A stretch of DNA of 64,000 nucleotides, from NCBI RefSeq assembly GCF_006385685.1, contig NZ_VFRP01000002.1, positions 248,001-312,000 on the forward strand. The letters are read 5' to 3'. The translations under genes and the position numbers were made by a program. Shown here one piece after another: positions 38,508 through 56,778 of this stretch (position 1 is the stretch's first letter; each line of letters starts with the position of its first letter). Below the pieces are notes generated by a model, which was not told the DNA's origin, searched no databases, and saw only the letters and a list, made by a program, of their open reading frames with translations. This DNA is from Amaricoccus solimangrovi (GTDB lineage: Bacteria; Pseudomonadota; Alphaproteobacteria; Rhodobacterales; Rhodobacteraceae).

Positions 38508-38520
38508 CCCCGCCCGCGCC

Positions 38521-39402: not shown

Positions 39403-40340
39403 CGACCGCGCGGCTCATCCTCCTTCACCTCGCCTTCCTCGCGGCGCTCGGCGCGGTCGGGCTGGCGCTGCCGGCCTATCACGAGGCGAACCTCGTCCGG
39501 ATCATGCTGCTCTCGGTCTTCGCGATCGGCTACAACATCGCCTTCGGCTACGCGGGGCTGCTCAGCCTCGGCCACGCGCTCTTCTTCGCGGCGGGCATGT
39601 ACGCCGCGGGGCTCGGCGCGACGCTCGGCGGCTGGGGCGGCGGGACGGCGCTCGGCGCGGGGATCGCGGCGGGCGCGCTCGTCGCGTTCCTGACCGGGCT
39701 GCTCGCGCTCCGCGCCAGCGGCACGGCCTTCATGATCGTGACGCTCATGTTCGCCCAGGCCGGCGCGCTCACCATCCTGCAGTTCGGCGAGATCACCCGG
39801 GGCGACGAGGGTTTCGTCGTGCCGGAGGCGGCGCGCGCGCTCGCGGGCCTGCCGCTCACGGACGAGACGGCGCGCTTCGCCGTCGCCTTCGCGGCCTTCG
39901 CCCTCGCGCTCGTCGGCTCGCTCCTGCTCGCGCGCTCGGCCCTCGGCCGGGTGCTCGTCGCGATGCGCGAGAACGCGGAGCGGGCGCGGATGCTCGGCTA
40001 CGACCCGTTCCGCTACCGGCTGATCGCGCTCACGCTCTCGGGCCTCTGCGCGGGGACGGCGGGGGCGCTCTACGCGCTCGCCTTCGGCTACGTGGGCGCG
40101 AGCTTCGCGGGGATCCAGTATTCGATCCTGCCGCTCCTCTGGGTGCTGACGGGGGGCGCGGGGACGGTGCTCGGCCCCTTCCTCGGCACGCTCGTCATGT
40201 ACTACCTCGTCGATCTCGCCGGCGCCATCACCACGGCGACGCTGATGGTGGTCGGCGCGGCGCTGCTCGCGCTCGTGCTCTTCGCGCCGAAGGGCATCCT
40301 CGGCGCGCTCCGTGCCCGGGTGGCGCCATGGCTGCCGTGA
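39399..40340 (+). CDS. livM: Branched-chain amino-acid-type ABC permease, LivM subunit
   Basis: Second inner-membrane permease, 313 residues, with about nine hydrophobic segments. Marks are YAGLLSLGHALFFAAGMYAAG, the EAA-like loop MRENAERARMLGYDPFRYRL and TGGAGTVLGPFLGT. The ATG overlaps the livH stop by 4 bases, and the stop overlaps livG by 13 bases, so the operon is tightly coupled. Confidence 0.93.
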   Translation: MTTARLILLHLAFLAALGAVGLALPAYHEANLVRIMLLSVFAIGYNIAFGYAGLLSLGHALFFAAGMYAAGLGATLGGWGGGTALGAGIAAGALVAFLTGLLALRASGTAFMIVTLMFAQAGALTILQFGEITRGDEGFVVPEAARALAGLPLTDETARFAVAFAAFALALVGSLLLARSALGRVLVAMRENAERARMLGYDPFRYRLIALTLSGLCAGTAGALYALAFGYVGASFAGIQYSILPLLWVLTGGAGTVLGPFLGTLVMYYLVDLAGAITTATLMVVGAALLALVLFAPKGILGALRARVAPWLP

Positions 40341-41035
40341 TTCTGGAGGCGCGCGGGCTCACGAAGACCTTCGGCGGGCTCCGCGCGGTCGACGGCGTCG
40401 ATTTCGACCTGCGCCGCGGCGAGATCCACGCGCTGATCGGGCCGAACGGCGCGGGCAAGACCACCTTCGTGAGCCTGCTCTGCGGCCGGATCGCACCCTC
40501 CTCCGGCACGATCCGCTTCGAGGGGCGCGACATCACCCGCCTGCCCGCCCATGCCCGCGTCCGGCTCGGCATCGCCTATACCTTCCAGATCACCTCGATC
40601 TTCCCGCGCCTCACCGCCTTCGAGAACGTCGCCATCGCCGCGCAGCGGCTCGGGTCGCGCGGATGCGAGGCGCGGGCGCGCGCGGTGCTGGAGCGGGTCG
40701 GGATCGCGGCGGAGGCGGGCGCGCGCGCGGGCGATCTCTCCTACGGCCACCAGCGCCTCGTCGAGATCGCGATGGGCCTCGCGCTGGAGCCCCGGCTCCT
40801 GATCCTCGACGAACCGACCCAGGGGCTCGCCAACGCCGAGGTCGACCGTTTCGCCGCGCTGATCGAGGGGCTCGCCGGCGGCGCGACGATCCTGCTCATC
40901 GAGCACAACATGGACCTCGTGATGCGGCTCGCGGAGCGGATCACCGTGCTCGACGGCGGGACGAAGCTCGCCGAGGGCGCGCCGGAGGCGATCCGCGCGG
41001 ACCCGGCGGTGCGCGCCGCCTATCTGGGGGGATGA
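40328..41035 (+). CDS. livG: Branched-chain amino-acid-type ABC ATPase, LivG subunit
   Basis: Cytoplasmic ATPase of 235 residues. It has Walker A GPNGAGKTT, the Q-loop area YTFQITSIFPRLTAFENV, a signature written LSYGHQRLVEIAMGLA, Walker B LLILDEPTQGLA and the switch histidine in IEHNMDLV. The YGHQ form of the signature is usual in LivG. It starts inside the livM end and ends in an ATGA overlap with livF. Confidence 0.95.
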   Translation: MAAVILEARGLTKTFGGLRAVDGVDFDLRRGEIHALIGPNGAGKTTFVSLLCGRIAPSSGTIRFEGRDITRLPAHARVRLGIAYTFQITSIFPRLTAFENVAIAAQRLGSRGCEARARAVLERVGIAAEAGARAGDLSYGHQRLVEIAMGLALEPRLLILDEPTQGLANAEVDRFAALIEGLAGGATILLIEHNMDLVMRLAERITVLDGGTKLAEGAPEAIRADPAVRAAYLGG

Positions 41036-41730
41036 TGCTCGAGATCTCCGGCATCGACGCGGGTTACGGGAACGTCCGGGTGCTCCGGGGCGTGAGCCTC
41101 GCCGTCGCCCCGGGCGAGGTGCTCTGCGTGATGGGCCGCAACGGCGCGGGCAAGTCCACGCTCCTGAAGGCGGTCCTCGGCCTCGCCCGCGTCACCGCCG
41201 GATCGATCCGGCTCGGGGAGACGGAACTGACCGGGCTGCCGGCGCACCGGATCCCGCGCGCGGGGCTCGGCTACGTGCCGCAGGGCCGCCGGCTCTTCGC
41301 GGAGCTGACGGTGGCGGAGAATCTCGAGATCGGGCTGATGACGCGGCGGAAGGGCGCCGCGACGCGCGACCGCGTGCTCGACCTCTTCCCCCGGCTCCGC
41401 GAGCGGCTGGGCCAGATCTCCGGCACGCTCTCGGGGGGCGAGCAGCAGATGCTCGCGACCGCCCGCGCGCTCTGCCTCGAACCCTCCGTTCTCCTGCTCG
41501 ACGAGCCGACCGAGGGGCTGCAGCCCTCGATGATCGCGCTGATCCGCGAGACGGTGACGCGGCTCCGCGCCGAGGGCGTCGCCGTGGTCCTGGTCGAGCA
41601 GCGCATCGAGGCGGTGCTGAGCATCGCCGACCGCGTGGCCTTCCTCGTCAACGGCGAGGTGGCCGAGGTGCTGCCGGCGGCGGGGCTGGACCCGCGGGCG
41701 GAGGTGTTTGCAAGATGGGTGGGGGTCTAG
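41032..41730 (+). CDS. livF: Branched-chain amino-acid-type ABC ATPase, LivF subunit
   Basis: Second cytoplasmic ATPase, 232 residues. It shows Walker A GRNGAGKST, YVPQGRRLFAELTVAENLEIG, signature LSGGEQQMLATARAL, Walker B LLLDEPTEGLQP and VLVEQRIEAVLSIADR. The start ATG 41032 overlaps the livG TGA; a second ATG follows at once. It is the last gene of the operon, and no terminator-like hairpin follows before the lower-GC island begins at about 41731. Confidence 0.95.
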   Translation: MMLEISGIDAGYGNVRVLRGVSLAVAPGEVLCVMGRNGAGKSTLLKAVLGLARVTAGSIRLGETELTGLPAHRIPRAGLGYVPQGRRLFAELTVAENLEIGLMTRRKGAATRDRVLDLFPRLRERLGQISGTLSGGEQQMLATARALCLEPSVLLLDEPTEGLQPSMIALIRETVTRLRAEGVAVVLVEQRIEAVLSIADRVAFLVNGEVAEVLPAAGLDPRAEVFARWVGV

Positions 41731-42930
41731 AATTGTTTGAAACGACCGCTAAACCGTAGCGCCACGTAGGGCTGGGGTTCTTTTAAGGCTCAAAGAAATC
41801 CGGAATCATATCAACCGCTTTCCCCACTATCTTATTCACTTTAAAATGTGATCCCAATCGAAATTCTTTCGGTTCTCCGGGACAATTTTCTGTCGCAAGC
41901 GAAAAAGTCATGGTCAAGTTCTCTAAAGATCTTACTTCTGCCATCATCGCTTCGGCTGTTTTGGAAAGCGGACGCAGGGCCATCCCCACACGCATATTGT
42001 GTGATTCATAACAACCTGGCAAGATAGTATAATCGAACCTAACAGGAACTCGAGTTTCTGGCATTTTCACAGGATATTTTTCCCGAGAGAAATGGATGTC
42101 CAATCCATTTTCTCTATCATGGGTGTACGCTCGAGGATTCAGTTGCCATTTATATGCCGCTACTCGTCCCGTATTCTCTAGGCGAAATTTCAATTGAAAT
42201 TCTACAAAAACATAATCTTTTCCGACTGCGAACTGCTCTGCCTCAATTCCTTCGAGATTAAAATCTAAGGTTGGGCTGGTAAGACGCTGCCGGAGCAACT
42301 CGATGTAAGAATGTGAAGCAGGGATAGAACGCCCGGCCTGCCTCACATAATAGAGATGACTTTTTGTATCTTGGTGGGGAGCCAGAAGGCTATCCCCAAA
42401 ATCAATTACTACAACCACCCTCCCAGAGGGGATCCTTGAGACGTCTGCTCTCGCAACTGTGTGAACGCGAAAGTCGCTCAGAGGATAACTCAGTAAGTTG
42501 GGCAGTTTCTGTTCGATCCAATCTCGCATGGTGGCTCGCCCCATTTGGGCTGGTAATCCGTCGGGTACTCCGTCGTCCTTTACACCCAAGATTAAGCTAC
42601 CGCCCCCAGAATTCGCAAAAGCTGAAGCCGCCTTTGCGAGTGCGTTGAGAAAGGCGTTCCGATCGTCAAAGAGAGCTCCGGATTTACGTTCAAAATTATC
42701 CGACTCCTCCAACGGCAAATCATCGATGTCCGCCTCGGACCAACTGTCTCGTTTCATTCGCGTGTCCGGATCTTGCCGAAAGAGTGAATTTGTGGTGGCC
42801 CTGCTTAGCCTACGGCTATGCGCATTGGGCATTAATTCCTGCCTGTGGGAGGCTGCGAGGGCAATCAGCGTTTCTGGTTCCATGTTCCGATGCTCAGCGT
42901 AGGCGGACGTCTTTCACTGGTGCGGCCCCC
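41731..42930. other. Lower-GC island carrying a single AlbA_2-type gene
   Basis: Between livF and the AEC permease the base composition drops abruptly to about half G+C by eye, with runs such as AAAATTATC and many A/T third positions. The change is sharp at about 41731 and about 42905. Near the left edge is CGTAGGGC (41765-41772) and near the right edge GTAGGCGGAC (42899-42908), both resembling the arm of the palindrome at 10276-10304. No integrase, transposase or tRNA is present. It looks like a recently acquired single-gene insertion. Confidence 0.7.
41783..42757 (-). CDS. Schlafen/AlbA_2-domain protein, probably horizontally acquired
   Basis: A protein of about 324 residues. The N-terminal half has AlbA_2 marks: an acidic ESDNFERKSG (about 18-27) and FANSGGGSLILGVKDDG (about 47-63), followed by a loop ending in YVRQAGRSIPA. 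The C-terminal half has a beta-rich region of unknown type. AlbA_2 proteins occur among transcription regulators and in phage-defence loci; no activity can be assigned here. Codon use is far less GC-rich than neighbours. ATG 42757 was chosen because it gives a family-like N-terminus; an in-frame ATG at 42883 would add 42 residues. Confidence 0.8.
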   Translation of the reverse strand: MKRDSWSEADIDDLPLEESDNFERKSGALFDDRNAFLNALAKAASAFANSGGGSLILGVKDDGVPDGLPAQMGRATMRDWIEQKLPNLLSYPLSDFRVHTVARADVSRIPSGRVVVVIDFGDSLLAPHQDTKSHLYYVRQAGRSIPASHSYIELLRQRLTSPTLDFNLEGIEAEQFAVGKDYVFVEFQLKFRLENTGRVAAYKWQLNPRAYTHDRENGLDIHFSREKYPVKMPETRVPVRFDYTILPGCYESHNMRVGMALRPLSKTAEAMMAEVRSLENLTMTFSLATENCPGEPKEFRLGSHFKVNKIVGKAVDMIPDFFEP

Positions 42931-43878: not shown

Positions 43879-44210
43879 CGCGCCCCCTCCCCGGCCCGGC
43901 CGTTCTGGCGCCTGACGCGGCGGGGGATCGCGGGCGGTCTCATGCGGGGGTGTTCCTTTCCGGAAGGTCCGGGCCGTCCCCCGGCGGGCGGGGCGGTCCG
44001 GAGCGGAGCCTAGCGGGCGCCCCGGGGCTTGCAAAGGCCCGGGGCCGGCGAACCCCCGGATCGTTCCGTCTCTGCCCTCCCGAGGGCGCGGGCGCCAAAT
44101 CGCTGGGCGTTTCCGCCGCCGCGGGGCCGCGCGGCTCGGAAAATGCTTGTCGCGCGCGCCGATGTCCTGTGAAACGGTAGCCCGGAGACCTAGCCGGAGT
44201 TGGGGAACGC
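43879..44210. other. Divergent intergenic region before the transglutaminase operon
   Basis: A 332-base gap. It contains a hairpin GCCCCGGG (44019-44026) with CCCGGGGC (44038-44045) and a weak promoter candidate for the plus strand at 44147-44175. Nothing else was recognised: no tRNA, no small gene with a ribosome site. Confidence 0.45.
44147..44175 (+). promoter_or_regulatory. Weak promoter candidate for the transglutaminase operon
   Basis: TTGTCG (44147-44152, 4 of 6) and TGAAAC (44170-44175, 3 of 6) are 17 bases apart, 35 bases before the ATG at 44211. Both matches are poor, so the site is mainly a guess from spacing. Confidence 0.25.
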
Positions 44211-47200
44211 ATGTCGATCAAGGCCGCCATCTATCACCTGACGCATTACAAGTACGATCGTCCGGTCACGCTCGGCCCGCAGATCATCCGCCTTCGCCCC
44301 GCGCCGCATTCGCGCACCCGCGTCATCTCGCATTCGCTGCGCGTCAGCCCCGGCGGGCATTTCGTCAACCACCAGCAGGATCCCTACGGCAACTGGCTCG
44401 CCCGCTTCGTCTTTCCCGAGCCGGTGCGCGAACTGAGGATCGAGGTCGATCTCGTCGCGGACATGACGGTCTACAACCCGTTCGACTTCTTCGTGGAGGA
44501 GAGCGCGGAGGAATGGCCGTTCGAGTATCCGGCCGACATCCGCGAGGATCTCTCGATCTACATGACGCCCGAGCCGGTCGGGCCGAGGCTCGCGGCCTTC
44601 CTCGACACCATCCCGCGGGAGACGGCGCGCACGGTCGATTTCGTCGTCGGGCTCAACGCGCGGCTCAGCCAGCACGTGGGCTACGTGATCCGGATGGAGC
44701 CGGGCGTGCAGACGCCGGAGGAAACCTTCGAACGCGGCACCGGCTCCTGCCGCGACTCGTCCTGGCTGCTGGTGCAGATCCTGCGCAACCTCGGTCTCGC
44801 GGCGCGGTTCGTCTCGGGCTACCTGATCCAGCTGAAGCCCGATCTCGTCGCGCTCGACGGGCCGGCGGGGACGGATCACGACTTCACCGACCTGCATGCC
44901 TGGTGCGAGGTCTACCTGCCCGGCGCGGGCTGGATCGGGCTCGACCCGACGAGCGGCCTGCTGACCGGCGAGAGCCATGTGCCGCTGGCCGCGACCCCGC
45001 ATTTCCGCAACGCCGCGCCGATCTCGGGGATGGCGAGCTACGCCGAGGTCGATTTCGCCTTCGACATGAAGATCTCCCGCGTCGCGGAGCATCCCCGGAT
45101 CACCAAGCCCTATTCCGAAGAGGCCTGGGCCGATCTCAACGTGCTCGGCGCGCAGGTCGACCGCGCGCTCGCCGAGGGCGACGTGCGCCTGACGATGGGC
45201 GGCGAGCCCACCTTCGTCTCGATCGACGATTTCGAGAGCGGGGAGTGGAATACCGACGCGGTCGGGCCGACCAAGCGCGGCCGGGCCGACCTGCTGATCA
45301 GGCGGCTGCGCGACAGGTTCGCGCCGGGCGGCTTCCTGCACTACGGCCAGGGCAAGTGGTATCCGGGCGAGACGCTGCCGCGCTGGACCTTCTCGCTCTA
45401 CTGGCGGCGCGACGGCAAGCCGATCTGGTCCAACGCCGGGCTGATCGCGGGCGAGGGCGAGGATACCGGCGTCGGCCCGAACGAGGCGGAGCAGCTGCTG
45501 ATGGGGATCGCCGACGTGCTCGGCGTCGATCATGACCTGGTCATTCCCGCCTTCGAGGATCCGGCGAGCTGGATCCTGAAGGAAGCGAACCTGCCCGAGA
45601 ACGTGACGCCGGAGAATTCCAAGCTCGAGGACGCGGAGGAGCGCCACCGGATCAGCCGCGTCTTCGCCCGCGGCCTGACCGAGCCCACGGGCTTCGTGCT
45701 GCCGGTCCAGCGCTGGCAGGCGCGCGCCGCCGACGCGCGGCGCTGGCGCTCGGAACGCTGGAAGCTGCGGCGGAAGTACCTCTTCCTCGTGCCGGGCGAC
45801 AGCCCCGTGGGCTATCGCATCCCGCTCTCCTCGCTGCCCTATGTGCCGCCCTCCTCCTATCCCTACACCAACGTCGCCGATCCGACCGAGCCGAGGAGCG
45901 CGCTCCCCGATTTCGACGTGGCGGTGCCCGAGATCCGGCCGAACCGGCAGGCGAGCTTCACCGCCGCGGAGCCGGTGCAGGACCGCATCGAGCAGCAGAT
46001 GGGCGAGCTCGACGGCGCGGTGCGCACCGCGCTCTCGGTCGAGCCGCGCGACGGCCGGCTCTGCGTCTTCATGCCGCCGGTCGAGCGGCTCGAGGATTAT
46101 CTCGAACTGATCGCCGCGGCCGAGGCGGCGGCGAAGGCGATGAACCTGCCGGTGCATATCGAGGGCTATGCCCCGCCGCACGATCCGCGCCTCAACGTCG
46201 TGCGCGTCGCGCCGGACCCGGGCGTGATCGAGGTGAACATCCAGCCCGCCCATTCCTGGGAGGACTGCGTCTTCATCACCGAGACGGTCTACGAGGAGGC
46301 GCGCCAGTCGCGCCTCGGCGCCGACAAGTTCATGATCGACGGCCGCCATACCGGCACCGGCGGCGGCAACCACGTGGTCGTCGGCGGCTCGAACACGCTC
46401 GACAGCCCGTTCCTGCGCCGGCCCGACCTGCTCAGGAGCCTGATCCTGCACTGGCAGCGGCATCCGTCGATGTCCTACCTCTTCTCCGGGCTCTTCATCG
46501 GCCCGACAAGCCAGGCGCCGCGGGTGGACGAGGCGCGCCACGACGGGCTCTACGAGCTCGAGATCGCGATGGCGCAGATGCCGCCGCCCGGCCAGGGCGT
46601 GCAGCCGCTGCCCTGGCTCGTCGACCGGCTGCTCCGGAACCTGCTCGTCGACGTCACCGGCAACACGCATCGCGCCGAGATCTGCATCGACAAGCTCTAT
46701 TCCCCGGACGGGCCGACCGGCCGGCTCGGCCTCGTCGAGTTCCGGGGTTTCGAGATGCCGCCCGATCCCCGGATGTCGCTCGCCCAGCAGCTGTTGATCC
46801 GGGCGCTGATCGCGCGCTACTGGGCGGCGCCGGCGGGCGGCGACTTCACGCGCTGGGGCATGGCGCTGCACGACCGCTTCATGCTGCCGCATTTCGTCTG
46901 GGAGGATTTCCTCGACGTGCTGCGCGACCTGACGGCGAACGGCTTCGCGATGCGCCCGGACTGGTTCGAGGCGCAGGCGGAGTTCCGCTTCCCGTTCTGC
47001 GGCGAGGTCGAGCACGAGGGGGTGCATCTCGAGCTGCGCGCCGCGCTCGAACCCTGGCACGTGCTGGGCGAGACCGGCGCGATCGGCGGCACGGTGCGCT
47101 ATACCGACAGTTCGACTGAGCGGCTGCAGGTAAAGCTCACCGCGACCAACCCGGGCCGCTACGCCGTGGTCTGTGGCGGACGCCGGCTGCCGCTGACCGA

Positions 47201-47537
47201 GACCGGAACGAGCGGCGTCTCGGTCGCGGGCGTGCGCTACAAGGCCTGGCAGCCGGCGCAGGCGCTCCATCCGGTGATCCCGGTGCATGCGCCGCTGACC
47301 TTCGACATCTACGACACCTGGAACAACCGCGCGCTCGGCGGCTGCGTCTATCACGTCGCCCATCCGGGCGGGCGCAACTACGACACCTTCCCGGTGAACG
47401 GCAACGAGGCGGAGGCGCGCCGGCTCGCCCGGTTCGAGCCGAGGGGGCACACGCCCGGCCTCTACCTGCCGCCGCTCGAGATGCCGAACCGCGCCTTCCC
47501 GCTGACGCTCGACCTGCGCCGCTCCGCCGGAGTGTGA
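44211..47537 (+). CDS. Transglutaminase-like/DUF2126 giant protein
   Basis: A 1108-residue protein, first of a three-gene operon. Residues 1 to about 90 form the bacterial transglutaminase N-terminal domain; about 140-290 is the papain-like core with the triad C180 (GTGSCRDSS), H229 (LHAWCEV) and D245 (GLDPTSG). From about 310 to the end is a DUF2126 region, with motifs [39 protein letters not shown] and [15 protein letters not shown]. The last set recalls a glutamine-synthetase-like ligase fold, as proposed for this family. No signal peptide. Role is unproven; it is predicted to cleave or join amide bonds in a peptide. Confidence 0.9.
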
Positions 47538-47543
47538 CGGATC

Positions 47544-49946
47544 ATGCGACCCCGCGACGGGCTGGCGGCTCAGGATGCGATCGCACGGCTGCTCGCCGAC
47601 TATCACCCGCTGCCGGGTGTCGCGGACGAACTGCTCGACCAGACCGGACGGATCCGCCCGGTCTGGGAGCGGTTCATGGCCCATCTCGCGGCCCTGCCGC
47701 CGGAGGAACTCTCCGCCCGCTTCGCGCGGGGCGACCAGTACCTGCGCGACGCGGGCGTGTTCTTCCGCCAGTACGGCGACGACAATTCCTCGGAACGGGC
47801 CTGGCCGCTCTCCCACATTCCGGTGCTGATCGACGAGGCGGAGTGGAACACGGTCGCGGAAGGGCTGATCCAGCGCGCCGACCTGCTCGAGGCGGTGGTC
47901 GCCGATCTCTACGGGCCGAACCGGCTGGTCGGGACCGGGCAGCTGCCCGCGACGCTCGTCGGGCGCAGCCCGGAATGGCTCCGGCCGCTGGTCGGGGTGC
48001 CGCCGCGCTCGGGCCATCATCTCCACTTCCTCGCCTTCGAGCTCGGACGGGGGCCGGACGGCACCTGGTGGGTGCTCGGCGACCGCGCCCAGGCGCCGTC
48101 GGGCGCGGGCTTCGCGCTCGAGAACCGGATGGCGACCGCGCGCGTCTTCGCCGAACTCTACGCCGAGGCGAACGCGCACCGGCTCGCCGGCTTCTTCCGG
48201 ACCTTCCGCGACGCGCTGCACGGGCTCTGCGAGGATCATCGTGAGCCGCGCGTCGCGATCCTGACGCCGGGGCCGCTCAACGACACCTATTTCGAACACG
48301 CCTATATCGCGCGCTATCTCGGCTTCATGCTGCTCGAAGGCGAGGATCTGACCGTCGAGAAGGGCCATGTGATGGTGCGCACCGTCGGCGGGCTGATGCC
48401 GATCGACGTGCTCTGGCGCCGGCTCGACGCGGCCTTCGCCGATCCGCTGGAGCTCAATTCGGGCTCGCGCATCGGCACACCTGGCCTCGTCGGCGCGGTC
48501 CGGCGCGGCAATGTCAGCCTCGTCAACGCGCTCGGCTCCGGCATCCTGGAGACCCGCGCGCTGCTCGCCTTCCTGCCGCGCATCTCGATGGCGCTGCGCG
48601 GCGAGCCGCTCCGGATCCCCAATATCGCGACCTGGTGGTGCGGCCAGCCGGTGGAGCGCGCGCATGTGCGCGCCAACGCCGCGCGGATGATGATCGGCTC
48701 GGCGCTCTCGACCCGGCTGCCCTTCGACCTCGACAGCGCCACCGGGATCGGCGGCCAGGGCCGCGGCCCCGAGGAGATCGACGCCTGGATCGAGAGCGAG
48801 GGTCCGGCGCTCGTCGGACAGGAGGCGGTGACGCTCTCGACCACGCCCGCGCATGTCGATGGCAGGCTCGTCCCCCGCCCGATGAGCCTGCGCGCCTTCC
48901 TCGTGCGTACCGCTCGGGGCTGGGAGGTGATGCCCGGCGGATTCGCCCGGATCGGCCGGACCCCGGATCCGACCGCGATCGCGATGCAGCGCGGCGGCTC
49001 GGCGGCGGATGTCTGGATCCTCGGCCCCGGCCCGACGCAATCGGTCACCATGCTTCCGGAGCCGTCCGTCGCCCAGCCCCGCCTGAAGCAGGGCGCGCTG
49101 CCGAGCCGGGCGGGCGACAACCTCTTCTGGCTCGGCCGCTACATCGAACGCGCCGAGGGGATGATGCGCCTGCTGCGCGCGCACCACATCCGCCTCGCGG
49201 AGACCGGCGACCCGGACGCGCCGCTCCTCACCTATCTCGACCGGCATCTGGGCGATGTCGGCCTCGACCCGGGCCAGGAGATCCCCGACGGGCTGCGCGC
49301 CACGCTGAGCGCCGCGACGTCGAGCGCGGGTCAGGTGCGCGACCGGTTCTCGACCGACGGCTGGATGGCGCTGAACGACCTCTCCCGCACGGCGCGGCGG
49401 ATGGCGGGAACCGCGCGGGCGGGCGACGACTGCGCCCGCGCGATGGGGGTGCTGCTGCGCAAGATCACCGGCTTCTCGGGCCTCGTGCACGAGAACATGT
49501 ACCGCTTCACCGGCTGGCGCTTCCTCGTGATCGGCCGGGCGATGGAGCGCTCGATGGAGATGGCGGGGCTGCTCGCCTGGCTCGGCGCGCCGGACGCGCC
49601 GGACGGGGCGCTCGATCTCGCGATCGAGATCGGCGACAGCGTCATGACCCACCGCCGCCGCTACGCCGCCGCGACGACGCGGGAGACGGTGATCGACCTG
49701 CTCGCGCTCGACGGGATGAACCCGCGCGCGATCCTCTACCAGATGGGCGAGGTCAGGAACCAGGTGGCGCTGCTGCCCGGCGCGGATGTGAACGGCCAGC
49801 TCTCGCGCCTCTCGCGCGAGGTGATGCGCCTGCATACCGACGTCGCGACGCAACTGCCCGAGGGGCTCGACACCGACGCCCTGCTCGACCTGCGCGACCG
49901 GCTCTTCGATCTGTCGGGCCTGCTCTCCGAAACCTATCTCGGATAG
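47544..49946 (+). CDS. Circularly permuted ATP-grasp protein fused to an alpha-E domain
   Basis: An 800-residue two-domain protein. Residues about 1-510 are a circularly permuted ATP-grasp ligase (ATPgrasp_1/DUF404-407 type) with LSHIPVLIDEAEW, LLEGEDLTVEKGHVMVRTVGG and LPRPMSLRAF-like ATP-site segments. Residues about 518-800 are an alpha-E (DUF403) helical domain, with LFWLGRYIERAEGMMRLLRAH near its start and a repeated VMTHRRRY helix. In many genomes these are two genes; here they are one. It begins 6 bases after the DUF2126 gene. It probably forms an amide bond between a peptide and an amino acid, by family inference. Confidence 0.9.
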   Translation: MRPRDGLAAQDAIARLLADYHPLPGVADELLDQTGRIRPVWERFMAHLAALPPEELSARFARGDQYLRDAGVFFRQYGDDNSSERAWPLSHIPVLIDEAEWNTVAEGLIQRADLLEAVVADLYGPNRLVGTGQLPATLVGRSPEWLRPLVGVPPRSGHHLHFLAFELGRGPDGTWWVLGDRAQAPSGAGFALENRMATARVFAELYAEANAHRLAGFFRTFRDALHGLCEDHREPRVAILTPGPLNDTYFEHAYIARYLGFMLLEGEDLTVEKGHVMVRTVGGLMPIDVLWRRLDAAFADPLELNSGSRIGTPGLVGAVRRGNVSLVNALGSGILETRALLAFLPRISMALRGEPLRIPNIATWWCGQPVERAHVRANAARMMIGSALSTRLPFDLDSATGIGGQGRGPEEIDAWIESEGPALVGQEAVTLSTTPAHVDGRLVPRPMSLRAFLVRTARGWEVMPGGFARIGRTPDPTAIAMQRGGSAADVWILGPGPTQSVTMLPEPSVAQPRLKQGALPSRAGDNLFWLGRYIERAEGMMRLLRAHHIRLAETGDPDAPLLTYLDRHLGDVGLDPGQEIPDGLRATLSAATSSAGQVRDRFSTDGWMALNDLSRTARRMAGTARAGDDCARAMGVLLRKITGFSGLVHENMYRFTGWRFLVIGRAMERSMEMAGLLAWLGAPDAPDGALDLAIEIGDSVMTHRRRYAAATTRETVIDLLALDGMNPRAILYQMGEVRNQVALLPGADVNGQLSRLSREVMRLHTDVATQLPEGLDTDALLDLRDRLFDLSGLLSETYLG

Positions 49947-49947
49947 G

Positions 49948-50838
49948 ATGATGCTCTACGACGTCGGGATGCGGATCACCTACAGCTACGACCGGCCGGC
50001 CGCCGGCGGCCGGCACCTGCTCCGGCTGCTGCCCGCCGACCTGCCGGGACAGCAGCGGCTGGTCTCGGGACTGCTCTCCGTTTCGCCCGCGCCGGCGGAG
50101 CGGAGCGAGATGGTGGATTTCTTCGGCAACTACGGGACCGAGATCATCTTCCGCGACCTGCATGACGAGATCGAGTTCCGCGTCGACGCGCGCGTCGAAC
50201 GCTTCGCCGAGCCTTCGGGGCTCGACATCTCGCCGCCCCTCTCCGGCCTCGCGGCGGAGATCGCCGAGTACCGGAGCCTCGACCCGGACTCGCCGCTCCA
50301 TTTCCTCTGGTCCAGCGCCCGGGTCCAGCCGACGCCGGAGATGACCGACTACGCGCGCGCCCATGTCTTCGACGGGATCACCGCCTTCTCGGCCGTGCTC
50401 GCGATCGGCCGGGCGCTCTTCCGCGACATGGAATTCGACGCCGAGGCGACGACGGTGGAAACCCTGGCGAAGGAAGCCTTCGCGCGGCGCCGGGGCGTCT
50501 GCCAGGACTTCGCCCAGATCATGATCGCGATGCTGCGCGGCATCGGCGTGCCGGCGGGCTATGTGAGCGGCTTCCTGCGGACCAACCCGCCCCCGGGCCA
50601 GCCCCGGCTCGAGGGCGCGGATGCGATGCATGCCTGGGTGCGCGCCTGGTGCGGGCGGGACATGGGCTGGATCGAGTTCGACCCGACCAACGACCTGGTC
50701 GTGTCGCTCGACCATATCGTCATCGCGCGCGGCCGCGACTATGGCGACGTCTCGCCGGTGCGGGGCATCCTGCGCATCGCCGGCGACCAGACCAGCGAGC
50801 AGGCGGTCGATGTGATCCCGGTCGGCGCCGGGTACTGA
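49948..50838 (+). CDS. Transglutaminase-like cysteine protease
   Basis: A 296-residue protein with the bacterial transglutaminase N-terminal domain (about 1-100) and a papain-like core with triad C185 (RGVCQDFAQ), H228 (MHAWV) and D245 (FDPTND). It starts one base after the ATP-grasp stop (49946), ATG 49948 or the next ATG, so it is the last gene of the same operon. Such enzymes can hydrolyse or transfer amide bonds. No signal peptide is seen, so it acts in the cytoplasm. In other genomes a proteasome-type protease gene often follows; none does here. Confidence 0.91.
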   Translation: MMLYDVGMRITYSYDRPAAGGRHLLRLLPADLPGQQRLVSGLLSVSPAPAERSEMVDFFGNYGTEIIFRDLHDEIEFRVDARVERFAEPSGLDISPPLSGLAAEIAEYRSLDPDSPLHFLWSSARVQPTPEMTDYARAHVFDGITAFSAVLAIGRALFRDMEFDAEATTVETLAKEAFARRRGVCQDFAQIMIAMLRGIGVPAGYVSGFLRTNPPPGQPRLEGADAMHAWVRAWCGRDMGWIEFDPTNDLVVSLDHIVIARGRDYGDVSPVRGILRIAGDQTSEQAVDVIPVGAGY

Positions 50839-50850
50839 CCCCCGCCGGCC

Positions 50851-51558
50851 TCAGACGGTCATCCAGCGCCGCACTTCTTCCTGGTCGAGCTCCGCGGTCC
50901 GGCCGGAAAGCACGATGCGCCCCCGGTCCATCACCGCGATCCGGTCGGCGAGCTCGACGGCGAAATCGAAGAACTGCTCGACCAGCACGATCGCCATCGT
51001 CCCCTGGTCGCGCAGATAGGCGATCGCGCGGCCGATGTCCTTGATCACCGAGGGCTGGATGCCCTCGGTCGGCTCGTCGAGCAGGAGGAGCCGCGGCCCC
51101 GTCACCAGCGCGCGGCCGATGGCGAGCTGCTGCTGCTGCCCGCCCGAGAGGTCGCCGCCGCGGCGGCCCATCATCTCGGCGAGCACGGGGAAGAGCTCGA
51201 ACACCGTGTCCGGCACCTTGCGCGCCCCGCGCGGCAGCAGCGCGTAGCCGGTCTCGAGGTTCTCCCTCACCGTCAGCAGCGGAAAGATCTCGCGCCCCTG
51301 CGGCACGGTCGCGACCCCGAGCTTCGCCCGCGCGTCGGGCCGCAGCTTCGAGATGTCGCGGCCCTCCCACATGATCCTGCCCGAGCGGATCCCCTGCCGC
51401 CCGGAGACCGCGCGCAGCGTGGAGGTCTTGCCGACCCCGTTGCGCCCGAGGATCGCCGTCACCTGCCCGGTCTCGGCCTCGAGCGAGACGTCCTTCAGCG
51501 CCTGGGCGGCGCCGTAATAGAGATCCATGCCCTCGATGGCGAGTTTGTCAGCGGCCAA
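50851..51558 (-). CDS. urtE: Urea ABC transporter ATPase UrtE
   Basis: Second ATPase of the urea importer, 235 residues. It has Walker A GRNGVGKTS, VPQGREIFPLLTVRENLETG, signature LSGGQQQQLAIGRAL, Walker B LLLDEPTEGIQPSV and the switch region VLVEQFFDFAVELADR. The likely start is TTG 51558, preceded by a GAGGTG ribosome site and overlapping urtD by 11 bases; ATG 51528 would cut the first beta strand. It is last in urtABCDE and ends 12 bases from the convergent transglutaminase gene. Confidence 0.93.
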   Translation of the reverse strand: MAADKLAIEGMDLYYGAAQALKDVSLEAETGQVTAILGRNGVGKTSTLRAVSGRQGIRSGRIMWEGRDISKLRPDARAKLGVATVPQGREIFPLLTVRENLETGYALLPRGARKVPDTVFELFPVLAEMMGRRGGDLSGGQQQQLAIGRALVTGPRLLLLDEPTEGIQPSVIKDIGRAIAYLRDQGTMAIVLVEQFFDFAVELADRIAVMDRGRIVLSGRTAELDQEEVRRWMTV

Positions 51559-52309
51559 GATACACCTCGATCACTTCCTGGTTCGCGGAGACATGGTCGA
51601 GCGAGCCCTCGGCCAGCACCGCGCCCCGGTGCAGCACCGTCACCTTGCAGTCGAGCGCGCGGACGAAATCCATGTCGTGCTCGATCACCACGACCGAGCG
51701 CTTGCCCGCGATGTCGCGCAGCAGTTCGGCGGTGCGCATCGTCTCGGCGTCGGTCATGCCGGCGGCCGGCTCGTCGACGAGCAGGAGCTTCGGCTCCTGC
51801 GCGAGCAGCATGCCGATCTCGAGCCACTGCTTCTGCCCGTGGCTGAGGCTGCCCGCGAGCCGGTGCCGCGCGGAGGTGAGCCGCACCAGTTCGAGGAGTT
51901 CGTCGATCCGCGCCTTCTGCGCCTTCGCGATCCGGAAGAGGAGGCTCGCCTTCACGCCGCGGTCGCCCGCGAGCGAGAGCATCAGGTTGTCCTCGACCGT
52001 GTGGGTCTCGAAGACCGTGGGCTTCTGGAACTTGCGCCCGATGCCGAGCCGCGCGGTCGAGGCCTCGTCGAGCTTCGTCAGGTCGGTATGCTCGGCCCAG
52101 ATCACCCGGCCCTGGTCGGGCCGCGTCTTGCCGGTGATGATGTCGAGCATCGTGGTCTTTCCGGCGCCGTTCGGACCGACCACGGCGCGCAACTCGCCCT
52201 CGGTGATCACCATCGAGAGGCCGTTGATCGCCTTGTAGCCGTCGAAGGAGCGGTGGACGTCGTTGAGATAGAGCTGGGTGCCCTTCAGGCCGCGGACCTC
52301 GTCGCTCAT
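51548..52309 (-). CDS. urtD: Urea ABC transporter ATPase UrtD
   Basis: First ATPase of the urea importer, 253 residues. It shows Walker A GPNGAGKTT, IGRKFQKPTVFETHTVEDNL, signature LSHGQKQWLEIGMLL, Walker B LLLVDEPAAGMTD and VVVIEHDMDFV. The SHGQKQWLEI signature is a mark of UrtD. ATG 52309 overlaps the urtC stop by 4 bases. Confidence 0.94.
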   Translation of the reverse strand: MSDEVRGLKGTQLYLNDVHRSFDGYKAINGLSMVITEGELRAVVGPNGAGKTTMLDIITGKTRPDQGRVIWAEHTDLTKLDEASTARLGIGRKFQKPTVFETHTVEDNLMLSLAGDRGVKASLLFRIAKAQKARIDELLELVRLTSARHRLAGSLSHGQKQWLEIGMLLAQEPKLLLVDEPAAGMTDAETMRTAELLRDIAGKRSVVVIEHDMDFVRALDCKVTVLHRGAVLAEGSLDHVSANQEVIEVYLGR

Positions 52310-53427
52310 GCCTCGGCCTCCACCGCCTCGGGTTCCGGTTGTTCCCGCCGGCCCCGCCCGAGCTTCTCGATCAGGCCGAGCACGCCCTGGGGCAGGAAGA
52401 TCGTGACGAGGATGAACATGAGGCCGAGCGCGTAGAGCCAGGCATCGGGGAAGGCCGAGGTCAGCCAGCTTTTCGCCGCGACGACGATGAGCGCGCCGAG
52501 CGCGGCGCCGACGAGCGTGCCCCGGCCGCCGAGCGCGACCCAGATCACGATCTCGATCGAATTCGCCGGGCTGAACTCGCCGGGGTTGATGATGCCGACC
52601 TGCGGCACGTAGAGCGCGCCCGCGACGCCGGCCATCATCGCCGAGACGGTGAAGACGAAGAGCTTGAACTGCTCGACCCGGTAGCCGAGGAAGCGCGTGC
52701 GGCTCTCCGCGTCGCGCACGCCGACGAGGACCTTGCCGAACTTCGTCATCGTGATCCAGCGCCCGACCAGCAGCCCGCCCCCGAGCGCGAGCGCCGAGAG
52801 GACGAAGAGCGTCACCCGCGTGCCGTCGCTCGACAGCGAGAAGCCGAGCACGTCCTTGAAGTCGGTCAGCCCGTTGTTGCCGCCGAAGCCCATCTCGTTG
52901 CGGAAGAAGGCGAGCAGGAGCGCGTAGGTCATCGCCTGGGTGATGATCGAGAGATAGACCCCGGTGACGCGCGAGCGGAAGGCGAACCAGCCGAAGACGA
53001 AGGCGAGCAGGCCGGGCGCGAGCAGCACCATCAGGCAGGCGAACCAGAACATGTCGAAACCGTGCCAGAACCAGGGCAGCTTCTCGTAGCCGAGGAACAC
53101 CATGAAATCGGGCAGGACCGGATTGCCATAGGCGCCGCGCGATCCGATCTGGCGCATCAGATGCATGCCCATCGCATAGCCGCCGAGCGCGAAGAAGGCG
53201 CCATGGCCGAGCGAGAGGATGCCGCAATAGCCCCAGACGAGATCGAGCGCGACGGCGAGCAGCGCGTAGCAGAGATACTTGCCGATGAGCGAGAGCATGT
53301 AGGTCGGCACGTGGAGCCCGGATTCCGGGCTCAGCGCCGTGTTGGCGAGCGGTACGCCGACCGTGACGACGGCGAGCAGCGCGAGGAAGACGCCGAGGCG
53401 GCGGTCGATGAAGGAGGTCGAAGCCAT
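52306..53427 (-). CDS. urtC: Urea ABC transporter permease UrtC
   Basis: Inner-membrane permease of 373 residues with about ten hydrophobic helices. Marks are DLVWGYCGILSLGHGAFFAL, MGFGGNNGLTDFK, the EAA-like RDAESRTRFLGYRVE and IWVALGGRGTLVGAALG. The presence of the GFGGNNGLTDFK loop separates UrtC from LivM. It follows urtB by 4 bases and overlaps urtD. Confidence 0.95.
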   Translation of the reverse strand: MASTSFIDRRLGVFLALLAVVTVGVPLANTALSPESGLHVPTYMLSLIGKYLCYALLAVALDLVWGYCGILSLGHGAFFALGGYAMGMHLMRQIGSRGAYGNPVLPDFMVFLGYEKLPWFWHGFDMFWFACLMVLLAPGLLAFVFGWFAFRSRVTGVYLSIITQAMTYALLLAFFRNEMGFGGNNGLTDFKDVLGFSLSSDGTRVTLFVLSALALGGGLLVGRWITMTKFGKVLVGVRDAESRTRFLGYRVEQFKLFVFTVSAMMAGVAGALYVPQVGIINPGEFSPANSIEIVIWVALGGRGTLVGAALGALIVVAAKSWLTSAFPDAWLYALGLMFILVTIFLPQGVLGLIEKLGRGRREQPEPEAVEAEA

Positions 53428-53431
53428 GCGC

Positions 53432-55033
53432 TCAGCCTTCCACTGCGCGGCCGCGGGTCGGGAAGAGGCCGCGCGGGCGTTTCTGGATGAAGAGGATGAT
53501 GAAGACGAGGATCAGGATCTTCGCCAGCACCGCGCCGACGAAGGGCTCCATGAACTTGTTCGCGACGCCGAGGGTGAAGGCGGCGGCGAAGGTGCCCCAG
53601 AGGTTGCCGGCGCCGCCGAAGACCACGACGAGGAAGGAATCGATGATGTAGCTCTGCCCGAGGTTCGGCGAGACGTTGTCGATCTGGGAGAGCGCCACGC
53701 CCGCGAGCCCGGCGATGCCGGCGCCGAGGCCGAAGGTCAGCGCGTCGACGCGGGCGGTGCGGATGCCCATCTCGGAGGCCATCGGCCGGTTCTGCGTCAC
53801 CGCGCGCATCTGCAGGCCGAAGAGCGTGCGCTTGAGCAGCAGCAGCAGGCCGACGAAGATCGCCACCGCGAAGATCACGATGTAGAACCGGTTCCAGGTG
53901 ATCGAGAGCCCGCCGAGCGGAAAGGCGCCCGACATCCAGGACGGGTTGCCCACCTCGCGGTTCGACGGGCCGAAGAAGGTCCGGACCAGCTGCTGCAGGA
54001 TGAGGCTGACCCCCCAGGTCGCGAGCAGCGTCTCGAGCGCGCGGCCGTAGAGGAAGCGCACGATGAAGCGTTCGATCGCGACGCCGATCGCACCCGCGAC
54101 GAGGAAGGCGAGCGGCGCGGCGATCAGGAGCGACCAGTCGAAGAGGCCGGGGAAGCTCGTCCGGATCACCTGCTGCGTCACGTAGGTCGTGTAGGCGCCG
54201 ATCATGATCAGCTCGCCATGCGCCATGTTGATGACGCCCATCACGCCGAAGGTGATCGCGAGCCCGACCGCGGCGAGCAGCAGGACCGAGCCGAGCGAGA
54301 GGCCGAACCAGACGTTCTGGCCGACGTTCCAGAGCTGCTGGGCGCGTTCGATCCCGGCGATGGCCTTGTCGGCGGCCTCGGCCACCGGCGCGTCCGCGTC
54401 GCCCCGGTAGGGATTGAGCACCGTCAGCGCGTCGGTGCCGCCGCGCCGCGCGACGATCCCGATCGCGGCGACCTTCTCGGCGCCGGGCGCGTCGCTCGCG
54501 AGCACGGCCGCGGCGCGGGCCTGTTCCATCGCCGTCCTGACCGCCGCGTCGCCCTCCTTCGCGATCGCGGTGTCGAGCGCCTCGATCTGCTCCGGATCGG
54601 GCGCGGCGAAGGCGGTGTTGGCGGCGGCGAGGCGCTTGCCCGCGTCGGGAGAGCTCAGCGTCAGCAGGCCGATCGCGGCGCGGACGGCGCGGCGCAGGCT
54701 GTTGTTCACGCGGATGGATTCCGTCGAGCCGGAACCCACGGGGCCGAGTTCGTCGCCCGTCAGCGGGTCGTAGCCGACCGCCTTCGAGCCCCTGCCCTTC
54801 ACCTGGATCACCGCGCCGTCGGCTTCGCGGACCCTGAGTTCTCCCTCGCCGAGCGCGTTCAGCAGGCCCACGGCGCGGTCGTCGCCGGTCGCCCCGATCT
54901 TTGCCACCACCTCGGCGCGGTCGTTGAAACTGCCCTCCGGCAACTGCCGGGCCAGGTCTTCCAGCGACTGGGCGGAGGCGGCGGAGGCGAGGAGGAGCCC
55001 GAACCAGACGGTGAGGGTGAGAAGAATGCGCAT
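53432..55033 (-). CDS. urtB: Urea ABC transporter permease UrtB
   Basis: A 533-residue permease with the usual UrtB layout: signal peptide (1 to about 21, ending ASAQS), a soluble periplasmic domain rich in alanine helices (about 25-240), and a LivH-like membrane domain (about 245-525) with VMGVINMAHGELIMIGAYTTYV (core VINMAHGELIMIGAY) and VVVFGGAGNLWGT. It lies 89 bases downstream of urtA, behind a strong hairpin. Confidence 0.95.
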   Translation of the reverse strand: MRILLTLTVWFGLLLASAASAQSLEDLARQLPEGSFNDRAEVVAKIGATGDDRAVGLLNALGEGELRVREADGAVIQVKGRGSKAVGYDPLTGDELGPVGSGSTESIRVNNSLRRAVRAAIGLLTLSSPDAGKRLAAANTAFAAPDPEQIEALDTAIAKEGDAAVRTAMEQARAAAVLASDAPGAEKVAAIGIVARRGGTDALTVLNPYRGDADAPVAEAADKAIAGIERAQQLWNVGQNVWFGLSLGSVLLLAAVGLAITFGVMGVINMAHGELIMIGAYTTYVTQQVIRTSFPGLFDWSLLIAAPLAFLVAGAIGVAIERFIVRFLYGRALETLLATWGVSLILQQLVRTFFGPSNREVGNPSWMSGAFPLGGLSITWNRFYIVIFAVAIFVGLLLLLKRTLFGLQMRAVTQNRPMASEMGIRTARVDALTFGLGAGIAGLAGVALSQIDNVSPNLGQSYIIDSFLVVVFGGAGNLWGTFAAAFTLGVANKFMEPFVGAVLAKILILVFIILFIQKRPRGLFPTRGRAVEG

Positions 55034-55072
55034 GTGCCCGGGAGCCTCCGCGGCCGACTTCGAAAGGGGGAA

Positions 55073-55110
55073 GCCTCCCCGCGGTCCGCCGGGACGGGCC
55101 GCGGGGAGGC
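55073..55110 (-). terminator. Intercistronic hairpin between urtA and urtB
   Basis: GCCTCCCCGCGG (55073-55084) and CCGCGGGGAGGC (55099-55110) form a perfect 12-bp stem with a 14-base loop, followed on the minus strand by TTCCCCCTTTCG. It lies 12 bases after the urtA stop. A partial terminator or 3'-end stabiliser at this place would give much more binding protein than permease, a common arrangement for ABC importers. Confidence 0.65.
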
Positions 55111-55122
55111 GCGGTCATCGGA

Positions 55123-56415
55123 TCAGTTCGCGGCGGTTCCGCCGCACTTGCCGGTCGCGACGTTGAAGTTTCCGCAGCTCATCGGCGCGCGCCAGTCGGA
55201 GATCAGGTCCTTCGATTCCGGCAGGTAGTCCGACCATTCGTCGCCGAGCACGAGGCCCGGGGTTTCCCAGACGGTCTCGATCTGGCCGTCGTCCTGGATC
55301 TCGCCGATCAGCACCGGCTTGGTGATGTGGTGGTTCGCGCCCATCGAGCTGATGCCGCCGGTCAGGTTCGGGACCGCGACGCCGATCATGTTGTCGAGCA
55401 CCGCGTCGGTCTCGGTGGTGCCCGCCGCCTCGACCGCCTTCACCCACATGTTGAAGCCGATGTAGGTCGCCTCCATCGGGTCGTTCGTCACGCGGTCATC
55501 GTTCTTGATGAAGGCGTGCCACTTCTCGATGAACTCGTCGTTCTCGGGCGTGTCGACGCTCATGAAGTAGTTCCAGGCCGCGAGATGGCCGACGAGCGGC
55601 GCGGTGTCGAGGCCCGCGAGCTCCTCCTCGCCGACGGAGAAGGCGACCACGGGGATGTCCTCGGCCGAGACGCCCTGGTTCGCGAGTTCCTTGTAGAAGG
55701 GCACGTTCGCGTCGCCGTTGATGGTCGAGACCACGGCGGTCTTCTTGCCGGCAGAGCCGAAGGCCTTGATGTCGGAGACGATCGTCTGCCAGTCGGAATG
55801 CCCGAACGGCGTGTAGTTGATCATGATGTCCTCGGGCGCCACGCCCTTCATCTTGAGATAGGCCTCGAGGATCTGGTTGGTCGTGCGCGGATAGACGTAG
55901 TCGGTGCCCGCGAGCACCCAGCGCTCCACGCCTTCCTCGTTCATCAGGTAGTCGACCGCCGGGATCGCCTGCTGGTTCGGCGCGGCGCCGGTGTAGAAGA
56001 CGTTGCGCTGGCTCTCCTGGCCCTCGTACTGGACCGGGTAGAACAGGATCGAGTTGAGCTCCTCGAAGACCGGCAGCACCGACTTGCGGCTGACCGAGGT
56101 CCAGCAGCCGAAGACGACCGAGACGTTGTCCGAGGCGACGAGCTCGCGCGCCTTCTCGGCGAAGAGCGGCCAGTCGGAGGCGGGATCGACGACCACCGGC
56201 TCCAGCTTCTTGCCGAGCACGCCGCCCTTCTTGTTCTGCTCGTCGATCATCATCAGGACCGCGTCCTTCAGCGTGGTCTCCGAGATCGCCATCGTGCCCG
56301 AGAGCGAGTGCAGCACGCCGACCTTGATCGTCTCCTCCTGCGCCAGCGCCGAACCGGCCCAGAGCGAGGCCGCCGCCGCGGCGCCGAGGCCGAAATGCTT
56401 CAGATTGCAGATCAT
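55123..56415 (-). CDS. urtA: Urea ABC transporter substrate-binding protein UrtA
   Basis: Periplasmic urea-binding protein, 430 residues. It has a Sec signal peptide (1 to about 26, ending GSALAQ) and the UrtA-specific motifs VGVLHSLSGTMAISE, VFGCWTSVSRKSVLPVFE, LFYPVQYEGQESQ and GTDYVYPRTTNQI. ATG 56415 was chosen because a GAGGGACAG ribosome site and the signal peptide follow it; the long in-frame extension upstream is the leader. It heads urtABCDE. No urease genes lie in the window. Confidence 0.96.
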   Translation of the reverse strand: MICNLKHFGLGAAAAASLWAGSALAQEETIKVGVLHSLSGTMAISETTLKDAVLMMIDEQNKKGGVLGKKLEPVVVDPASDWPLFAEKARELVASDNVSVVFGCWTSVSRKSVLPVFEELNSILFYPVQYEGQESQRNVFYTGAAPNQQAIPAVDYLMNEEGVERWVLAGTDYVYPRTTNQILEAYLKMKGVAPEDIMINYTPFGHSDWQTIVSDIKAFGSAGKKTAVVSTINGDANVPFYKELANQGVSAEDIPVVAFSVGEEELAGLDTAPLVGHLAAWNYFMSVDTPENDEFIEKWHAFIKNDDRVTNDPMEATYIGFNMWVKAVEAAGTTETDAVLDNMIGVAVPNLTGGISSMGANHHITKPVLIGEIQDDGQIETVWETPGLVLGDEWSDYLPESKDLISDWRAPMSCGNFNVATGKCGGTAAN

Positions 56416-56778
56416 CACTGTCCCTCGTTGTTTCTTGCCCCGAGCGCCTCGCGTCGGGGAGCGGCCTGGCCGGCGTCGCCCGAACCCCCTTCGGCGAAAC
56501 TCCGCCGAGGTTCGGGCGCCAACCTGCGAAGCACCGGTCAGCCGGTCAAGCAGTATCGCTTGCAAAACATGCGTCGGTTGGCATCTGATCATTTATTGCG
56601 CATTTCATCACGCGCATCACGACAATGCGACCATTTCGTGACCATAGCCGAGGCGGAAGGCGCCGGGTGAAGGGCCGCGCAACGCCTGATTGACTTGGCG
56701 CCCCGGCCCCCCACCATGCCGCCGGGGGCGGTGTGGCGCCCCCGGGCGCTCCCCGGCGCCCCCGGCGAAAGGACCATC
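56416..56778. other. Regulatory region between urtA and the DMT-type gene
   Basis: A 363-base divergent gap. It has an A/T-richer centre (about 56548-56640) with a TGCGC-10-GCGCA inverted repeat (56597-56616), and a long hairpin close to urtA (56477-56518). I looked for a sigma-54 GG-N10-GC site and a NtrC GCACC-GGTGC palindrome and found no convincing copy. No small gene was seen. Confidence 0.5.
56477..56518 (-). promoter_or_regulatory. Hairpin in the urtA leader
   Basis: CGCCCGAACC (56477-56486) pairs with GGTTCGGGCG (56509-56518), and inside it TCGGCG (56491-56496) pairs with CGCCGA (56503-56508) around a 6-base loop; four bases (56487-56490) bulge. The 16 base pairs make a stable stem 60-100 bases before the urtA ATG. 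There is no U-tract, so it could stabilise the mRNA, hide sites, or bind a protein. Confidence 0.5.

Follow-up and report, generated by a model that had tools for sequence, protein, structure and literature searches.

The 64,000-nt stretch of Amaricoccus solimangrovi DNA analyzed here (contig NZ_VFRP01000002.1, positions 248,001 to 312,000; hereafter the window) carries an operon of three genes, whose products we call P1, P2, and P3, and it raises the question of which of these proteins might form an amide bond and whether the three could make and break one by themselves. An earlier note, made from the sequence alone, had read the operon as a closed cycle of ligation and release acting on a peptide, with the ATP-grasp protein P2 as the ligase. 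The system, a widespread three-gene bacterial set, probably does join and cut amide bonds. However, P2 was found to belong to a clade that has lost the residues of the ATP site, and a canonical circularly permuted ATP-grasp protein, designated aG, is encoded elsewhere in the same genome and in nearly all genomes that carry P1 or P2. The features of the operon are as follows.

44211-47537, plus strand: P1, transglutaminase-like domain fused to DUF2126, 1108 residues (open reading frame list, Pfam)
44637-44948, plus strand: Transglut_core domain of P1 (residues 143-246), with the triad C180 (44748-44750), H229 (44895-44897), and D245 (44943-44945)
45042-47519, plus strand: DUF2126 of P1 (residues 278-1103), predicted glutamine-synthetase/GCS fold
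47544-49946, plus strand: P2, circularly permuted ATP-grasp fused to Alpha-E, 800 residues (open reading frame list, Pfam, 3n6x_A match)
47820-48953, plus strand: ATP-grasp domain of P2 (Pfam, residues 93-470), canonical ATP-site residues lost
49098-49940, plus strand: Alpha-E domain of P2 (residues 519-799), ER motifs kept
49948-50838, plus strand: P3, transglutaminase-like protein, 296 residues (open reading frame list, Pfam)
50500-50502, 50629-50631, and 50680-50682, plus strand: triad C185, H228, and D245 of P3 (alignment of relatives)

The open reading frames and Pfam matches bear out the layout given in the earlier note, three genes separated by 6 bases (P1-P2) and 1 base (P2-P3), together with their domain make-up. 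P1 matched Bact_transglu_N (6-83), Transglut_core (143-246), and DUF2126, a 'putative amidoligase' family (278-1103, 1322 bits); P2 matched CP_ATPgrasp_2 (PF14403, 93-470, 428.7 bits) and Alpha-E (519-799); and P3 matched Bact_transglu_N (4-84) and Transglut_core (147-246), a content in keeping with the amide-bond chemistry already proposed for the operon. None of the three proteins matched a family in the NCBIfam search. No signal peptide was visible by eye at any of the three N-termini, again as the note had it.

P2 has the ATP-grasp fold by homology, matching PDB entry 3n6x_A over residues 28-493 (E 3.8e-66); the match of aG, encoded on contig C78, to the same entry had an E value of 1.2e-203. 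In the alignment, aG retains the canonical motifs VLEDNxRTPSG, VVKxxxGSGGYG, RHVDLRPF, and VVNSSQGGG; P2 has other residues in their place. When 33 canonical and 118 P2 sequences were compared, 117 columns were at least 97% conserved in the canonical set, of which 51 were kept in at least 80% of the P2 sequences and 40 in at most 10% of them. A score was then based on E205, K366, K413, G420, D473, and N504 of aG, which general knowledge of ATP-grasp enzymes would place in the ATP/Mg site. All 49 distinct canonical sequences (52 rows less three duplicates) keep six of six, and the 134 P2-type sequences keep none (114), one (16), or two (4). The P2 of the window keeps none, having G179, R338, G385, L392, S448, and A480 in place of E, K, K, G, D, and N, with A480 (48981-48983) lying just beyond the Pfam match to the ATP-grasp domain. 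Three further P2 proteins, from Burkholderia cenocepacia, an Enterobacter plasmid, and a Granulicella plasmid, score 1, 1, and 2, respectively, and the aG proteins that adjoin P2 in B. cenocepacia and on the Enterobacter plasmid both keep all six. A tree built with the six test columns removed placed the P2-type sequences in one clade separate from the canonical proteins (SH-aLRT 100), in a quick search on 64 rows sampled from 186 that left row L209 on a long branch.

The assignment of the operon's ATP-grasp as its ligase is not upheld by these results. The earlier note had foreseen that a site unable to bind ATP would count against its reading, and the P2 sequences examined go nearly that far, by sequence only: throughout them, the ATP-binding lysines, the metal ligands, and the Gly-rich loop expected of a functional ATP-grasp are lost. 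Other residues of P2 are retained across the 134 P2-type sequences, namely D206 (127), R475 (134), R493 (130), and D513 (133), while R207 (121/134) and Q209 (108/134) are common to the P2 type. The Alpha-E domain keeps its ER motifs along with 14 of 26 conserved columns, 5 having been lost. With several pocket residues fixed and the ER motifs kept, the P2 gene does not look to be decaying; its product appears to be maintained, either as a non-catalytic protein or for a new purpose, and from its residues it is very probably not an ATP-grasp enzyme.

Contig C78 carries, together, aG, an alpha-E protein (aE), a transglutaminase, and Anbu, the last with Thr1, Asp17, and Lys32 in place. The earlier note had correctly stated that no proteasome-type protease lies in the window, and Anbu is found neither in the operon nor elsewhere in the 64,000 nt, so that the operon is not itself an Anbu operon; yet the Anbu set is present in the same genome, on a contig that the note could not see. 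Within the class, aG accompanies P1 in 20/21 genomes, as compared to 26/121 genomes without P1, the sole exception (G099) being 84% complete. It likewise accompanies P2-type proteins in 44 of the 45 phylum genomes that have them, the exception (G396) being 74% complete, and it is present in 29/29 family genomes in which P2 was matched at more than 800 bits. These counts do not support a closed cycle of the three genes alone. P1 and P2 occur together in 17 class genomes. Anbu was detected in 35/142 class genomes, all of which have aG, and in 14 of the 21 with P1.

The two gene sets are also found side by side. Of 20 hand-picked phylum loci, 14 have P1 and aG in a single stretch; the gene order in B. 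cenocepacia is aG-aE-transglutaminase-P1-P2-P3; and plasmid p1_120063 of Enterobacter roggenkampii (90,733 bases, IncFII) carries aG-aE-P1-P2-P3 (L247, 5603-14794), a self-contained copy outside the chromosome. An arsenate reductase gene is found about 2 kb away from this five-gene set, and an IS6 transposase at about 4 kb. We consider it likely that P1-P2-P3 acts jointly with the C78 set. The P2-type fusion was also seen in four genomes lacking a DUF2126 match (G057, G044, G012, and G073), which may show the role of P2 in the absence of P1.

A candidate for bond formation within the operon itself, missed in the earlier note, is the DUF2126 portion of P1, for which one AlphaFold2 model predicts a glutamine synthetase (GS) fold. 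E332, E674, N676, H721, R821, E823, E843, and R845 are invariant in DUF2126, and the candidate metal/ATP ligands are invariant by sequence in a region where the model has low confidence (pLDDT). Identity to the GS/GCS superfamily, which includes glutamine synthetase, GmaS, YbdK, and Dop, is about 10%, and P1 differs from these in the fusion of DUF2126 to a transglutaminase domain and in having an activity that is predicted. A PDB sequence search with P1 returned only transglutaminase-like entries and one chance-level match. On balance, it is fairly likely that P1 is an ATP-dependent ligase.

The Cys-His-Asp triads reported in the earlier note are conserved in relatives, leaving the operon with two different cysteine enzymes, both intact, as the note had held. 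C180, H229, and D245 of P1 are each present in 99 of 100 aligned rows, the remaining row being a gap; in relatives of P3, C185 and H228 are found in 116/116 and D245 in 114/116. Together with the family matches, these triads identify the N-terminus of P1 and P3 as transglutaminase-like. The genome encodes two further transglutaminase-like proteins with Bact_transglu_N outside both gene sets (L011, 4987-5877, plus strand, contig C60; L012, 3968-4855, minus strand, contig C89).

The above considerations suggest a scheme in which an amide-bond system would be built of two modules: the canonical aG, aE, transglutaminase, and Anbu of C78 (module A) and, as the accessory half, the window operon (module B: P1, P2, and P3). 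The GS-fold domain of P1 and aG would be the two ATP-using formers of amide bonds, and the transglutaminase domain of P1 and P3 would hydrolyze or transfer the amide. P2, a catalytically dead fused relative of aG-aE, would be a partner without catalysis of its own, either binding substrate or product or pairing with aG-aE via its preserved alpha-E domain. GS-fold ligases and transglutaminases both characteristically act at the side chain of glutamate or glutamine (gamma-carboxyl or amide). Because of this shared preference, the product may be an amine or peptide in gamma-glutamyl-type amide linkage, formed and cleaved in the course of nitrogen scavenging, a guess by analogy that we hold only tentatively and think may well be wrong. 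The two-module scheme as a whole we regard as plausible, if short of an even chance. A bolder version, in which P1, the active ATP-grasp/alpha-E pair, and its dead twin P2 would form a hetero-assembly that conjugates during nitrogen starvation, with P2 sensing substrate or product and Anbu as the final processor of a new Pup-like or gamma-glutamyl-conjugate pathway, seems to us quite unlikely.

In other bacteria, the evidence supports a role of the canonical module in nitrogen metabolism; for the window operon in its own organism, such a role is only inferred. In an ntrC mutant of B. cenocepacia H111 under nitrogen limitation, I35_5080-5083 (DUF404/407, DUF403, transglutaminase, and 'large transglutaminase') were down by log2 values of 8.2, 9.4, 9.4, and 6.0 (PMC5491218); across strains, I35_5083 would be the P1 homologue by its position and description, an assignment that draws on how the genes are ordered in a different B. 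cenocepacia strain. Pseudomonas putida grown on nitrate had increased PP_2685, labeled as the beta subunit of the bacterial proteasome, and PP_2688, a circularly permuted ATP-grasp, along with urtA (PMC8050072), and in the wild type under nitrogen limitation PP_2686-2688 rose 11- to 15-fold (PMC7801951). A marine metagenome study ties the domains of the system to those of urea metabolism (PMC3597751). Caulobacter hvyA, which is homologous to transglutaminases and has an NtrC peak (PMC10274813), was set aside, its membership in the family not being established there. In a promoter scan from which near-duplicate upstream stretches had been removed, and for which expected counts came from shuffled sequences, sigma-54-like sites preceded aG at 14 of 19 distinct loci outside the Alphaproteobacteria (expected 0.65) and at 7 of 27 alphaproteobacterial loci (expected 1.15), and preceded P1 at 7/19 loci of the former kind (expected 0.65). 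NtrC-like boxes before aG were enriched outside the Alphaproteobacteria (11/19, expected 3.3) and not within them (6/27, expected 5.9).

A number of results weigh against the scheme. The two modules are unlinked in the window genome; aG lies close to P1 in only 3 of 20 class loci, one of which (L051) has P1 alone, and near the cassette in none of 80 named loci, the alphaproteobacterial modules being mostly apart. The tie between P1 and P2 is not strict, 4/21 P1 genomes lacking P2 and 4/21 P2 genomes lacking P1; no Anbu was detected in 7 of the 21 P1 genomes; and the genomes are related, which makes all co-occurrence counts, Fisher values included, less independent than they look. The six residues of the ATP-site score were chosen by motif after the alignment had been viewed. 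As to P1, pLDDT falls below 50 at residues 384-388, 708-717, 760-777, 813-827, and 832-838, parts of the presumed active site, and hhalign against GCS2 gave a probability of 0.2%, which does not support the GS fold. A literature search found no biochemistry on P1, P2, or P3. Alphaproteobacterial P1 promoters had sigma-54-like sites in 9/90 cases (expected 4.0; the highest of 40 shuffle sets gave 8) and NtrC boxes in 24/90 (expected 18), at most a weak enrichment. The scan detected neither a sigma-54 site nor an NtrC-like one ahead of the window operon, which speaks against sigma-54 control of this operon. NtrC can work without sigma-54 in some Rhodobacterales. In P. putida, PP_2685 (Anbu) was not induced in the wild type (1.12-fold), and an rpoN mutant still induced PP_2686-2688 14- to 20-fold (PMC7801951). 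A strict need for sigma-54 in P. putida is therefore disfavored, and this induction slightly lowered our confidence in the whole scheme.

Other explanations differ from the two-module scheme chiefly in what they make of P2 and of the product. Were P2 an active ATP-grasp ligase, the three genes alone might form the closed cycle on a peptide first proposed, and the clear homology of P2 to 3n6x_A and the tight spacing of the genes are as that reading would have them, as is the liberation of phosphate from ATP by an Anbu-operon ATP-grasp (PMC6376114). However, the P2 clade is without the ATP-site residues, the canonical aG is nearly always present too, and no conserved peptide open reading frame lies nearby, which together make this explanation very improbable. 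P2 could instead be re-purposed and not dead, its altered pocket supporting a different reaction or binding another nucleotide or an acyl-phosphate ligand. The conservation of D206, R475, R493, and D513 speaks for such a role, as do the R207 and Q209 that P2 proteins have in common, but nearly all P2 sequences are missing the Gly-rich loop, the two canonical lysines, and the canonical D and N, and we judge it unlikely.

The main rival as to the product is Pup-like tagging, in which proteins would be tagged with a peptide or amino acid by P1, as a GS-fold ligase, and the ATP-grasp; the transglutaminases would take the tag off again, and Anbu would trim or degrade the tagged protein. Among the families listed in the structural comparison, ordinary glutamine synthetases reach equal or higher scores, no small tag open reading frame was found nearby (86 loci, 6 kb), and Anbu went undetected in a third of the P1 genomes (7/21); moreover, in the parts available, published Anbu is described as without peptidase activity or specific partner binding (PMC6376114). 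Tagging of this kind is, in our estimate, a rather poor prospect. A further explanation is that the two modules have a common ancestry and occur in the same taxa but act on different substrates, their co-occurrence reflecting only ecology. It would fit the lack of linkage in the window genome and the promoters, since those of module A look nitrogen-controlled and those of alphaproteobacterial P1 hardly so, but it sits poorly with the joint clusters in beta- and gammaproteobacterial loci, on a plasmid, and in B. cenocepacia, and with the near-complete co-occurrence of P1 and P2 with aG, and we think it improbable. Bearing on the gamma-glutamyl product of the two-module scheme, phosphate release by the Anbu-operon ATP-grasp of Yersinia bercovieri was not stimulated by glutamine or glutamate (PMC6376114), a result that neither supports nor excludes that chemistry.

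Neither the gene set nor the proposal that it modifies peptides is new. Iyer et al. 2009 reportedly described neighborhoods of transglutaminase, ATP-grasp, alpha-E, and amidoligase genes, the same domain families as in the window operon, and predicted peptide synthesis or modification. That work is cited in PMC5666114 and PMC6376114. What is possibly new is the re-assignment of roles among the proteins: the literature search, which did not include Iyer et al. 2009, found in the parts of papers available no statement of ATP-site loss in the fused ATP-grasp, no mention of DUF2126, and, as the earlier note had supposed, no substrate assigned to the system, and the available parts of PMC10318531 and PMC3610870 held nothing on it. 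The four-gene set of C78 corresponds to the Anbu operon of Y. bercovieri and P. putida (PP_2685-2688), which has homologous ATP-grasp, alpha-E, and transglutaminase genes; unlike it, the window operon has DUF2126 and a fused ATP-grasp-alpha-E without the ATP-site residues, and has no Anbu. The canonical circularly permuted ATP-grasp 3n6x, a 'putative glutathionylspermidine synthase', is homologous to both P2 and aG and keeps the canonical motifs that P2 does not. RimB-RimK and rlo (PMC12239564) also combine an ATP-grasp and a peptidase in one operon, rlo with a transglutaminase-like protein as well, a likeness of gene content. The system is common, and its function has been open since the 2009 proposal as far as the literature found tells. 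The evidence on roles, that P2 is probably not a ligase, that DUF2126 has a predicted GS fold, and that aG is nearly always present, guides which protein to assay and points to the gene set for deletion and to nitrogen starvation as the growth condition. It could also help explain the role of Anbu, a proteasome relative described as without known function (PMC8665760).

The window operon is a typical member of its cassette, having a transglutaminase-DUF2126 gene, then a circularly permuted ATP-grasp-alpha-E fusion, then a transglutaminase gene. The order P1-P2-P3 on a single strand is kept in 71/80 named, 15/20 class, and 29/30 family loci, the last including the window's own, and several loci without the full set stop at a contig edge; the arrangement is not accidental. 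Sampling found DUF2126 in 21 of 142 class genomes and P2-type proteins in 45 of 150 phylum genomes, one of the 45 being a contig-edge fragment, and an intact cassette is carried on the Granulicella plasmid (Acidobacteriota). One DUF2126 gene (L016 / L054, genome G124) is broken by two stop codons, and no P2-type match is listed for that genome. Loci L035, L041, L047, and L048 have an extra gene between P1 and P2, with no common feature evident by eye.

The survey of neighbors suggested in the earlier note yielded no small peptide gene: no open reading frame of at least 30 residues was conserved within 6 kb across 86 loci (blastp, 1e-6), unlinked or shorter tags being beyond this search, and a linked peptide gene is thus not supported. 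The commonest neighbor family occurs in 24/86 loci, on mixed sides and strands, and the others among the 45 families listed appear to reflect synteny within a few genera. Convergent with the operon is a transporter gene set.

50851-56592, minus strand: urtEDCBA urea ABC transporter, all five above NCBIfam cut-offs

Among the 30 family P2 loci, which extend about 0.6 kb past P3, urtE adjoins P3 in the window's locus alone, and the link to urea transport was therefore rejected as incidental. On the other side of the operon region, at 37212-41730, is another set of transporter genes, branched-chain/urea in type, whose two scanned members fall below the urea-specific cut-offs. Also near the operon are a gene of the histone-deacetylase family (57305-58243, plus strand) and a gene with a Schlafen/AlbA_2 domain (41783-42883, minus strand). 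An antisense open frame of 1887 codons (44190-49853, minus strand) spans P1 and most of P2 and is probably a shadow of high-GC coding.

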